64,000 bases of DNA from Halorubrum rubrum. Its GTDB lineage: Archaea > Halobacteriota > Halobacteria > Halobacteriales > Haloferacaceae. The translations under genes and the position numbers were made by a program. Where the stretch lies: assembly GCF_024494685.1 (NCBI RefSeq), contig NZ_JANHDM010000005.1, positions 1 through 64,000 of the forward strand, written 5' to 3'. This document shows, piece by piece, positions 3,183-6,724 of the stretch (position 1 is its first letter; the number at the start of each line of letters is the position of its first letter). The notes beneath the pieces were generated by a model. That model was given only the letters and a program-made list of their open reading frames with translations, was not told the DNA's origin and searched no databases.

Positions 3183-4873
3183 CGGCCCATCCCCTCGATC
3201 CGAGGGTCGTCCTCGCGAACCCGCTCGATCGCGGCGAGGACGCCCTCCATCTTGCGCTCGGTCTCCTCGTACTCCGCGGTCGGGTCGGAGTCGGCGACGA
3301 TCCCCGCGCCGGCGCGGACCGTGATCTCGTCGGTGCCGGCGCGCTCGTCGTCCTCGAAGCCCGTCTCGCCGGAGCCGTCGATCCCCTCGCGTATCGTCGC
3401 CGTCCGGATCACGATCGCGAAGTCCGCGTCGCCGGTCCACGAGTAGTAGCCGACGCCCCCGCCGTACGCCTCCCGCGGGGTCGTCTCGAGGTCGTCGATG
3501 ACCTCCATCGCGCGCACCTTCGGCGCGCCGGTGAGCGTGCCCGCGGGGAACGCCGCCCGCGTGGCGTCGAACGGGTCGCAGTCGGGCGCGAGCGTCCCCG
3601 TCACGGTCGACTCGATGTGCTGGACGTGGCTGTACTTCAACACGTTCATGAACTCCTCGACGCGGACGGACCCCGGCTCGGACACCCGGCGCACGTCGTT
3701 GCGCGCGAGGTCGACGAGCATCGTGTGTTCGGCGCGCTCCTTCCCGTCCGCGAGCATCTCGCCGGCCAGCCGCCGGTCCTCGACCGGGCTCGTCCCGCGG
3801 GGGCAGGTGCCCGCGATCGGGTTCGAGACGACGCGGTCGCCCTTCACCGAGACGAGCGTCTCCGGGCTCGCGCCGACCACCGTCCGGTCGTCGTGGCTGA
3901 GGACGTACATGTACGGCGAGGGGTTGATCTCCCGGAGCGCCGCGTACAGCCCGAGCGGGTCGACGTCGCCGCGGAGCCGCCGGCTCCGGGAGATCACGCC
4001 CTGGTAGATGTCTCCGTCGAGCACGTGGCGTTTCGCGGTCCGGACGGCCTCCTCGTAGGCCGCCTGCGGGTCGGCCTCCTCCTCCCGAACGCGGACGCCG
4101 CCGGGGTCCGGCGGGCCGGCCGCCGCGAGGTCGTCGGCGACGCGGTCCGCCTCCGCGGCGAGTTCGTCGTACACCTTGCCGGGGTCGTCGTCGACGCCGA
4201 CGACCGGCGTGAACACCAGATCGACGGTCCCCTCCTTCTCGTCGAAGACGACTGTCCGCGTCGTCAACAGGAACTCGGCGTCGGGGAACTCGGTCGCCGG
4301 GCGCTCGACGCCGACTTCCTCGAGCCAGAGGTCGTACACCGCCTCGTACGCGAGGAAGCCGACGAAGCCGCCCGAGAGGATCTGCCGGTCCGTCTCGGGG
4401 AAGCCCCGACGGGCGACGTCGGGGAACGCCGCCCGGAGCCGGTCGATGGCGTCGCGGTCGTCGTCGACGCCCCCGTCGTCGGTGTCGGCATCGTCGACCC
4501 CGTCGCCGCCCGCGTCCACGTCGCCGACGAACGTCGCGGCGGGGCCGAGCTCGGTCACTTCGGTGCGGTCCGGGTGGACGGAGACCACCGCCTCGGGGTC
4601 GTAGCCGACGAACGAGTAGCGGGCGTGCCTGTCGGCTTTCCCGCCCGCGGTGAACGCGCCGTCGGGGTCGCTCGAGGCCACCTTCTCGCCGGACTCTAAG
4701 AGGAAGCCGTACGGCTCGTCGCCGACGAGCGTGGCGTACGCCGAGAGCGGGGTCGTCTCGGGGTCGAGCGACGCGGCCGTGCGGACGACGACCGGCCGCT
4801 CGGCGTCCGCGACCAGCTCGACGAACTCGGATCGCGAGCGGTCGAGTACGGTCCGCGGAGCGTCCCCGGTCAT
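3179..4873 (-). CDS. trpE: Anthranilate synthase component I
   Basis: A 564-residue chorismate-binding enzyme that converts chorismate plus ammonia to anthranilate and pyruvate. The N-terminal domain contains LLESGEK (about residue 56), matching the LLES element of tryptophan feedback-inhibited TrpE. The C-terminal chorismate-binding domain has GDIYQGVISR, PSPYMYVL, IAGTCPRG, HTMLVDLARND and FPAGTLTGAPKVRAMEVI. Inserted acidic loops (for example DADTDDGGVDDD) account for extra length. Overlaps trpF upstream and trpG downstream by 4 bp each. Start MTGDAPRTV chosen because it gives the ATGA overlap with trpF. Functions as a heteromer with TrpG. Confidence 0.97.
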   Translation of the reverse strand: MTGDAPRTVLDRSRSEFVELVADAERPVVVRTAASLDPETTPLSAYATLVGDEPYGFLLESGEKVASSDPDGAFTAGGKADRHARYSFVGYDPEAVVSVHPDRTEVTELGPAATFVGDVDAGGDGVDDADTDDGGVDDDRDAIDRLRAAFPDVARRGFPETDRQILSGGFVGFLAYEAVYDLWLEEVGVERPATEFPDAEFLLTTRTVVFDEKEGTVDLVFTPVVGVDDDPGKVYDELAAEADRVADDLAAAGPPDPGGVRVREEEADPQAAYEEAVRTAKRHVLDGDIYQGVISRSRRLRGDVDPLGLYAALREINPSPYMYVLSHDDRTVVGASPETLVSVKGDRVVSNPIAGTCPRGTSPVEDRRLAGEMLADGKERAEHTMLVDLARNDVRRVSEPGSVRVEEFMNVLKYSHVQHIESTVTGTLAPDCDPFDATRAAFPAGTLTGAPKVRAMEVIDDLETTPREAYGGGVGYYSWTGDADFAIVIRTATIREGIDGSGETGFEDDERAGTDEITVRAGAGIVADSDPTAEYEETERKMEGVLAAIERVREDDPRIEGMGR

Positions 4874-5514
4874 GCGACCTCCATCTCGCGGCCCGCGTTG
4901 GCGACGAAGCGGGCGACCGCGTTGTGGTCCTTCCGTCCCTCGACGTGTTCGACGCCGGAGGCCACGTCGACCGCGTACGGGTCCGCGACCCGCACCGCCT
5001 CGGCGACGTTCTCCGCGGTGAGCCCGCCGGCGAGCACGATCGGGACGGTCAGCCGCTCGGCCAGTTCGCCGGTCGCCGCCCAGTCGTGGGTCTCGCCGGT
5101 GCCGCCCGCGCCGGACTCGCGCGTCGAGTCGACGACGAGCGCGTCGGCGACGCCGTCGAACGCCTCGGCGCGCGCCGGATCGGTCGCGTCGATCGCGACC
5201 AGCACCTTCCGTTCCGTCTCCGCGCGGATGAAGCGGACCTCGTCGGGCGTCCACTCGCCGTGTAACTGGAGCGCGTCGGGGCCGATGGTCCGAACGAGTT
5301 CCACCGCGCGCTCGGCCGAGGTCGGCATCGTGACGAGCGTCGCCGTGACGAACGGGGGCACGTCGGCGAGCAGGTCGGCCGCGCGCGCCGGGTCGACCTC
5401 GCGAGGGGTGTCGACCGGAACCTCGGTTATCACGCCGACCGCGTCCGCCCCCGCCTCGACGGCCGCGCGGAGGTCCGCCTCGTCGGTGAACCCGCACACC
5501 TTCACCCGCGCCAT
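4870..5514 (-). CDS. trpF: Phosphoribosylanthranilate isomerase
   Basis: A 214-residue TIM-barrel enzyme converting phosphoribosylanthranilate to CdRP. Landmarks: MARVKVCGFTDEADL (active-site Cys region), ALQLHGEWT, AIDATDPA, IVLAGGLTAENV (phosphate-binding loop) and AVDVASGVE. The ATG at 5514 overlaps the trpD stop as TGATG; a GTG one codon earlier is an alternative start but the coupling favours ATG. Third in biosynthetic order and second in the operon trpD-trpF-trpE-trpG. Length is typical. Confidence 0.96.
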   Translation of the reverse strand: MARVKVCGFTDEADLRAAVEAGADAVGVITEVPVDTPREVDPARAADLLADVPPFVTATLVTMPTSAERAVELVRTIGPDALQLHGEWTPDEVRFIRAETERKVLVAIDATDPARAEAFDGVADALVVDSTRESGAGGTGETHDWAATGELAERLTVPIVLAGGLTAENVAEAVRVADPYAVDVASGVEHVEGRKDHNAVARFVANAGREMEVA

Positions 5515-6578
5515 CACTCGCCCTCCGACCCGGACCCCGTCGCCGCACCAGACCCGGCCGCAGCCGGCTCCGCGGTCGTCCCCTCACAGAGCGCCGCGAA
5601 CTTCTCGGCGGCCGCCCTCGAGTCGATCGCCGCCGCGGCGCGCTCGACGCCCGCCGAAAGCGAGTCGGCCTCGCCGGCGACGTATATCGCCGCGCCCGCG
5701 TTCGCTAAGATCAGGTCGCGTTTCGGTCCCGTCACCGAGCCGTCGACGATGCCGCGGAGGTCCGCCGCGTTCTCCTCAGGCGTTCCCCCCGCGACCGCCT
5801 CGATCGGCGCTCGCTCCACGCCGAGCTCCTCCGGCGTGATCGTGAACTCTCGGACGGTGCCGCCGTCGACCTCGGCGGCGACCGTCTCGTCGTGGATCCC
5901 GATCTCGTCCATCCCCGCGCCGTGGACGACGAGGGCGCGATCGACCGGCATGTGCGCGAGCGCGCGGGCGATCGGGCCGACCAGGTCGGGGTCGTAGACG
6001 CCGAGCAGCTGGGCGTCCGCCCCCGCGGGGTTCGTCAGCGGGCCGAGCACGTTGAATATCGTCCGCATCCCGAGCTCCTTCCGCGGGCCGATGACGGCCT
6101 TCATCGCGGGGTGGAAGACGGGCGCGAGCATGAACCCGATCCCGTCGGCCTCGATGGCGGCCTCGACCGCGGCGGGCTCGGCCTCGACGTTCGCGCCGGC
6201 GACCTCGAGCACGTCGGCGCTGCCGGAGGAGGAGGAGACGGAGTAGTTGCCGTGTTTGGCGATCGGCACGCCCGCGCCCGCGGCGACGATCGCCGCGGTC
6301 GTCGAGACGTTGATCGTGTCGTAGTCGTCGCCGCCGGTCCCGCAGGTGTCGACGAGCGGCGCTCGGTCGGGATCGATCGTCCGGGCCGCGTCGCGCATCC
6401 CTCGGGCGAATCCCGCGATCTCCGCCTCGGTCTCGCCTTTCGCACGCAACGCGGCGAGCAGCGCCCCGATCTGCGCTTCCGTCATCTCCTCGAAGACGAG
6501 CCGCGCGGCCTCGCGCGCCTCCTCGAGCGACAGGTCCTCCCCGTTCGTCACGCGTTCGACCGTGTGCTGAATGTCCAT
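5514..6578 (-). CDS. trpD: Anthranilate phosphoribosyltransferase, first gene of the trp operon
   Basis: A 354-residue class IV phosphoribosyltransferase joining anthranilate to PRPP. The N-terminal helical domain (MDIQHTVERVTNGEDLSL) is followed by the PRPP-binding DTCGTGGDDYDTINVSTT and KHGNYSVSSSSGSADVLE (KHGNRS in most homologues, Tyr here). The catalytic region RTIFNVLGPLTNPA follows. The C-terminus has a short Ala/Ser/Gly-rich tail. Start at 6578 is the first ATG after the promoter at 6581-6636. It leads an operon whose four genes all overlap, the arrangement known as trpDFEG in Haloferax; trpA, trpB and trpC are not in this window. Confidence 0.96.
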   Translation of the reverse strand: MDIQHTVERVTNGEDLSLEEAREAARLVFEEMTEAQIGALLAALRAKGETEAEIAGFARGMRDAARTIDPDRAPLVDTCGTGGDDYDTINVSTTAAIVAAGAGVPIAKHGNYSVSSSSGSADVLEVAGANVEAEPAAVEAAIEADGIGFMLAPVFHPAMKAVIGPRKELGMRTIFNVLGPLTNPAGADAQLLGVYDPDLVGPIARALAHMPVDRALVVHGAGMDEIGIHDETVAAEVDGGTVREFTITPEELGVERAPIEAVAGGTPEENAADLRGIVDGSVTGPKRDLILANAGAAIYVAGEADSLSAGVERAAAAIDSRAAAEKFAALCEGTTAEPAAAGSGAATGSGSEGE

Positions 6579-6580
6579 AA

Positions 6581-6636
6581 TGTTCACCGATGTATGAGTC
6601 CGTGTTGTAATGTACAAGTATGTACACCGATTTAAC
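6581..6636 (-). promoter_or_regulatory. trp operon promoter with 10 bp phased TGTACA-like boxes
   Basis: On the minus strand a GTTAAA box (6631-6636) sits about 53 bp before the trpD ATG. Directly downstream are two perfect TGTACA hexamers at 6611-6616 and 6621-6626. Degenerate versions follow at 6591 (tgtatg) and 6581 (tgttca), all starting at exact 10 bp intervals; the intermediate 6601 position is weak. TGTACA is the TRP-box core bound by the archaeal repressor TrpY in Methanothermobacter. Placement between TATA and the expected transcription start suits repression. Regulator identity here is inference. Confidence 0.6.
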
Positions 6637-6724
6637 CCTGTCGCCGTCGCTGTGCGTTCGGCGCTCGTGGCGACGGTGGCGGCAGATCGGGGGCGGATCG
6701 GGGGCGGACCGCGGGCTCCGGTCG

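Follow-up and report, generated by a model that had tools for sequence, protein, structure and literature searches.

The promoter of the trpD operon in the window (the whole 64-kb stretch of Halorubrum rubrum DNA analysed here) carries a phased array of boxes related to TGTACA, which we take to be the TRP-box core, and a shorter array of the same kind precedes trpCBA. We consider it likely that these arrays, of five boxes at trpD and three at trpCBA with one box per turn, form a multi-box operator that is read by a TrpY-family protein to repress both operons. We favour this reading on account of the boxes themselves, their 10-bp phasing, their conservation, their near-exclusive location at trp genes, the presence of a TrpY gene in the genome, and the recurrence of this geometry in other lineages that have TrpY.

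Phased boxes at the trpD promoter

Perfect TGTACA hexamers are found on the + strand of the window at 6611 and 6621, with near matches at 6581 (TGTTCA, one mismatch) and 6591 (TGTATG, two mismatches). This re-reading agrees with the first-pass annotation, which had described two perfect and two near-matching hexamers in 10-bp register upstream of trpD. The complete array consists of five boxes in exact 10-bp steps, beginning at 6621, 6611, 6601, 6591 and 6581 (Table 1). The fifth slot, at 6601-6606, was absent from that earlier list because it reads AACACG on the minus strand, a degenerate box. The conservation of box 5 is in part ambiguous, since this box shares bases with a GGTG, possibly a Shine-Dalgarno motif.

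Table 1 Features of the trpD promoter and operon, and the TrpY-family gene. Positions refer to the window unless a contig is named; column numbers refer to alignment A1.
Feature	Position	Strand	Basis or remark
trpD promoter/operator block, 62 bp, columns 1-62	6582..6643	-	Gapless alignment of 44 haloarchaeal trpD promoters; sharp conservation edge at column 1
TATA-like core TTAA, columns 9-12; T9, T10, A11 invariant	6632..6635	-	Alignment and sequence
Box 1, TGTACA, columns 18-23, immediately downstream of TATA	6621..6626	-	Sequence and alignment
Box 2, TGTACA, columns 28-33	6611..6616	-	Sequence and alignment
Box 3, degenerate AACACG, columns 38-43; A38, C42 invariant	6601..6606	-	Alignment
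Box 4, CATACA in this genome, consensus nGTACAT, columns 48-53; C52, A53 invariant	6591..6596	-	Alignment
Box 5, TGAACA in this genome, TGTACA in some relatives, columns 58-63	6581..6586	-	Alignment
trpD, anthranilate phosphoribosyltransferase, first gene of the operon; ATG 6578-6576	5514..6578	-	
trpF, ATG start at 5514	4870..5514	-	Sequence and ORFs
trpE, 564 aa	3179..4873	-	
trpG, 210 aa	2550..3182	-	
TrpY-family gene	G000:C11:391984-392472 (L107:1381-1881)		Directly adjoins radA, the recombinase gene

To describe conservation, trpD loci were collected from the genus and the order and their promoters were aligned (alignment A1, 44 haloarchaeal sequences). From CGACA, ahead of TATA, down to the start codon, the block aligns gap-free in nearly all of the haloarchaeal families sampled. 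Columns C1, A5, T9, T10, A11, G19, T28, C32, A33, A38, C42, C52 and A53 are invariant in the 44 sequences, and invariant columns fall in four of the five box slots. C22 is conserved in at least 90% of the sequences, so that C repeats at columns 22, 32, 42 and 52; because of this recurrence, and because C42 is invariant, the weak box 3 is not neutral. Within the genus, pairwise identity per 10 columns is 0.71-0.98 in the block versus 0.29-0.51 just upstream, and rises from 0.51 to 0.98 at the block edge.

As the proper test of phasing we used the self-similarity of alignment columns, instead of the periodicity of information content, which is not significant at 10 bp in the trpD block (p 0.26). 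The column self-similarity of the haloarchaea-wide trpD profile peaks at lags 10 and 20, with a permutation p < 2e-5 for lag 10, which is the best of the fundamental lags 5-15. The trpD promoter has diverged in families f9, f11 and f2, where the 10-bp steps are kept. The array of family f9 (L091, L092, L097) is rearranged, CTGTACACCAAAGTACAGAGTTGTACATC, still in 10-bp steps, and abuts the start codon in two of the three loci. Neither trpD boxes nor a TrpY match were found in G042, an incomplete genome.

The five-slot array has the top score in the 64-kb window, 23 of 30, while the best of 30 local shuffles reaches 19 (one strand). In the 3.2-Mb genome, TGTACA-N4-TGTACA occurs at this promoter only, its two matches being one region on two overlapping contigs, and the reversed-pattern control gives 0 matches. 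The second match, at C22:14852, was considered as a second regulated gene and rejected, as it is the same trp region on the overlapping contig. With one mismatch allowed, 65 double boxes are found genome-wide versus 29 for the control pattern, and those outside the trpD and trpC upstream regions are unsupported by the conserved-model search described below.

The first 21.4 kb of the contig (window 1-21477) are repeated, reversed and near-identical, in contig C22:1-21438 of the same genome (G000); this appears to be an overlap of contigs that the assembly left unmerged, not a true duplication. Directly downstream of trpG, at about 2440-2530 of the window, there is a short GC-rich tandem repeat (GGGAGCGGGAGAGACTGGGTG-like), the length of which differs between the two overlapping contigs.

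Boxes upstream of trpCBA and genome-wide specificity

Haloarchaeal trpC promoters carry CGCAAGnCTTATGTACAnATnnGTnCGTTAnTGTACA, followed by ATG within a few bases. This array has three boxes in 10-bp steps, each of which keeps its G and its C in all of 19 sequences, with a corrected p of 0.017 for the 10-bp repeat. In this genome the site is located at C24:156430-156456, immediately ahead of trpC, which is followed by trpB, trpA and an aldolase-type gene.

A sequence-only genome search with a model of the full 62-bp block found trpD alone, and a shorter box model was therefore needed to reach trpC. The resulting R2 model, of 28 columns and built from both trp promoters, was run over 19 genus genomes. 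It recovers the trpD and trpC sites in 19/19, and otherwise only two weak unrelated sites, in two genomes. One of these two, which gives genome G017 a third site (G017:C38), was discarded, since it lies in an AT-rich stretch without a trp gene. As far as can be judged from sequence, the regulon would comprise the two trp operons.

A candidate regulator of the TrpY family

A search of the genome for ACT domains led to a 166-aa protein encoded beside radA, which matches the NCBIfam family TrpY_fam (NF053754) with 229.9 bits, against a cut-off of 180, over 163/163 positions. The family combines an N-terminal helix-turn-helix with a C-terminal ACT-type amino-acid-binding domain. The first-pass annotation had placed the regulator outside the window and had proposed a genome search for a TrpY-like helix-turn-helix protein; that search is positive, and the gene does lie elsewhere in the genome. 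TrpY-family proteins are present in 80/80 good-quality haloarchaeal genomes sampled across the order, as well as in the Haloferax volcanii control. They are single-copy in those genomes, the rare weak extra matches being other proteins. As TrpY and the boxes are both nearly universal in haloarchaea, their co-occurrence there is not discriminating.

Autoregulation of trpY through boxes at its own promoter was also considered, but this promoter has no boxes in this genome, and none in phase were found in the trpY promoters of 30 other haloarchaea.

The same geometry in methanogens

Methanogen genomes were reached through a methyl-coenzyme M reductase scan followed by a TrpY-family search; the Methanothermobacter TrpY sequence is not among them. 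The TrpY-family gene of Methanobacteriaceae points away from trpE, in the divergent layout known from Methanothermobacter, and the trpY-trpE intergenic regions contain two TGTACA-like boxes exactly 10 bp apart in 4/4 cases (L288, L290, L291, L300), of which TGTACATTATTATACA and TGTATATATTTGTACA are examples. The Methanosarcinales with TrpY, whose protein is about 50% identical to haloarchaeal TrpY, carry phased boxes directly upstream of trpC. In three of the five species no other strong pair occurs in regions of 9-17 kb, where about 0.05 or fewer would arise by chance, and the other two have weaker arrays at the same position. The region upstream of Methanolobus vulcani trpC reads TGTACGTTTTTGTACATTACAGAACATAA, close to the haloarchaeal trpD block.

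No phased pair was detected in the controls without TrpY, namely the trpC loci of Methanocaldococcus and Methanothermococcus and the trpD of one MAG. The absence of boxes at the two trpC loci fits co-loss with the regulator, which is suggestive only, as the three loci are too few controls to prove it.

The operator of TrpY type proposed in the first-pass annotation gains support from the trpCBA boxes, the near-exclusive location of sites at trp genes and the methanogen boxes. We see an even chance that TrpY and phased arrays are an old control system that Methanobacteriales, Methanosarcinales and Halobacteria have in common. The degree of cooperative, filament-like repression would in that case depend on how many boxes there are, from two to five. 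Haloarchaea would then have lost autoregulation and unlinked the regulator, while keeping the array almost unchanged.

Alternative explanations

It is possible, although in our view unlikely, that the boxes are a true trp operator read by another regulator, for instance an Lrp/AsnC protein (LrpA2/Trh1) or a TrmB-family paralogue. LrpA2/Trh1 is a proposed regulator of aromatic amino acid synthesis in Halobacterium salinarum, where a lack of aromatic amino acids induces LrpA2 14.9-fold (PMC4162585); neither an operator for LrpA2 nor a link of this protein to the present boxes was found in the literature searched. In Har. hispanica the trp operons change with TrmB, yet they have no TrmB site or motif, and HAH_0923 has been suggested (PMC10817205). 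What speaks for TrpY over these proteins is that the TGTACA core and the 10-bp geometry match the TrpY-linked trpE promoters of Methanobacteriales, and that trp promoters of three lineages with TrpY share the motif.

A much less probable explanation is that the block consists chiefly of core promoter, Shine-Dalgarno and leader sequence, or forms a leader RNA element, and is not an operator. The TATA, the possible GGTG motif and the probable start site do all lie inside the block. However, boxes 1 and 2 precede the expected start site, and the trpC ATG follows TATA by about 33 bp, as in a near-leaderless promoter, so that boxes 1 and 2 and the trpC boxes are largely untranscribed. Moreover, no Rfam family reaches its gathering score, there is no codon-phase signal (0.89, 0.88, 0.89), and the block is confined to trp promoters in the genome-wide model search.

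Chance repeats in an AT-rich promoter, for which the six TGTACA in the window could be cited, are an explanation we regard as practically negligible, being opposed by the shuffles, the permutation tests, the genome-wide specificity and the conservation of the boxes at related trpD promoters, a check that the first-pass annotation had proposed, with a lack of conservation as grounds for rejection, and that is positive for nearly all families sampled in the 44-sequence alignment.

Comparison with known systems

The TRP boxes of Methanothermobacter lie between trpY and trpE, where TrpY binds them and acts as a repressor (PMC6737238). The system of Methanothermobacter thermautotrophicus (trpY-trpEGCFBAD) and the one described here are alike in the TGTACA core, its location at the promoter, a TrpY-family regulator in the genome and tryptophan genes as targets, and also in tandem boxes 10 bp apart, a spacing seen in related Methanobacteriaceae. 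In contrast, haloarchaeal trpY is unlinked from trp, lies beside radA and has no boxes, so that the divergent, co-controlled arrangement is not encountered, and haloarchaea have two separate target operons, with five and three boxes. Haloarchaeal TrpY is about 30-38% identical to the Methanobacteriales members compared, and its binding to the boxes and repression by it are predictions.

Membership of the TrpY family is in itself no proof of the target, since TrpY of T. kodakarensis (TK1227), of the same protein family and 42% identical to MtTrpY, is reported not to regulate trp, a role played there by Tar (TK0271) (PMC6737238). The same report states that haloarchaeal TrpY homologues cannot be assigned a function. 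No link between TrpY and haloarchaeal trp promoters turned up in the literature searched, which took in only a minority of subscription papers and not the early studies of Haloferax trp genes. TrpY and TRP boxes are already known; what appears to be new is their extension to haloarchaea, in a different genetic layout. TrpY would supply the regulator reported missing for the haloarchaeal trp operons, and, with a conserved operator and a single-copy candidate reader at hand, the proposal can be tested directly in Haloferax or Halobacterium. Cooperative binding by an archaeal ACT-domain regulator could also be studied on the fixed 10-bp array, which offers a natural system for it.

Proposed mechanism

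In the mechanism that we propose for TrpY, tryptophan, or another aromatic signal, would bind to the ACT domain of the protein, which would then fill one box after another along a single face of the DNA; this binding would probably be cooperative and involve dimers or higher multimers. Since each TGTACA is palindromic, a box offers a half-site in either orientation, and an array of any number of boxes could be filled. Bound TrpY would cover the DNA that stretches from immediately below TATA as far as the start codon, which would block RNA polymerase or TFB and lower the transcription of both operons together. The location of the boxes fits repression, because binding downstream of TATA has been described as inhibitory in archaea (PMC10817205).

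Two reports on Hfx. volcanii count against the TrpY model: added tryptophan is reported to alter the tna transcript only (PMC3235422), and the trpCBA promoter has been called not tightly regulated (PMC13147458). In view of the first of these, the effector or the conditions may differ. The model agrees with findings in Hbt. salinarum, where a lack of aromatic amino acids induces trpCBA and trpDFEG in parallel (PMC4162585).

In the trpCBA region of this genome (G000:C24:155500-160500, L370), the gene that follows the operon is class I aldolase-like, as in Hbt. salinarum, and resembles the OE1472F enzyme. Through this gene, control by the trpC operator would extend to the entry step of aromatic synthesis. 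In Hbt. salinarum the aldolase gene that closes trpCBA shows a 12.5-fold induction in the absence of aromatic amino acids (PMC4162585).
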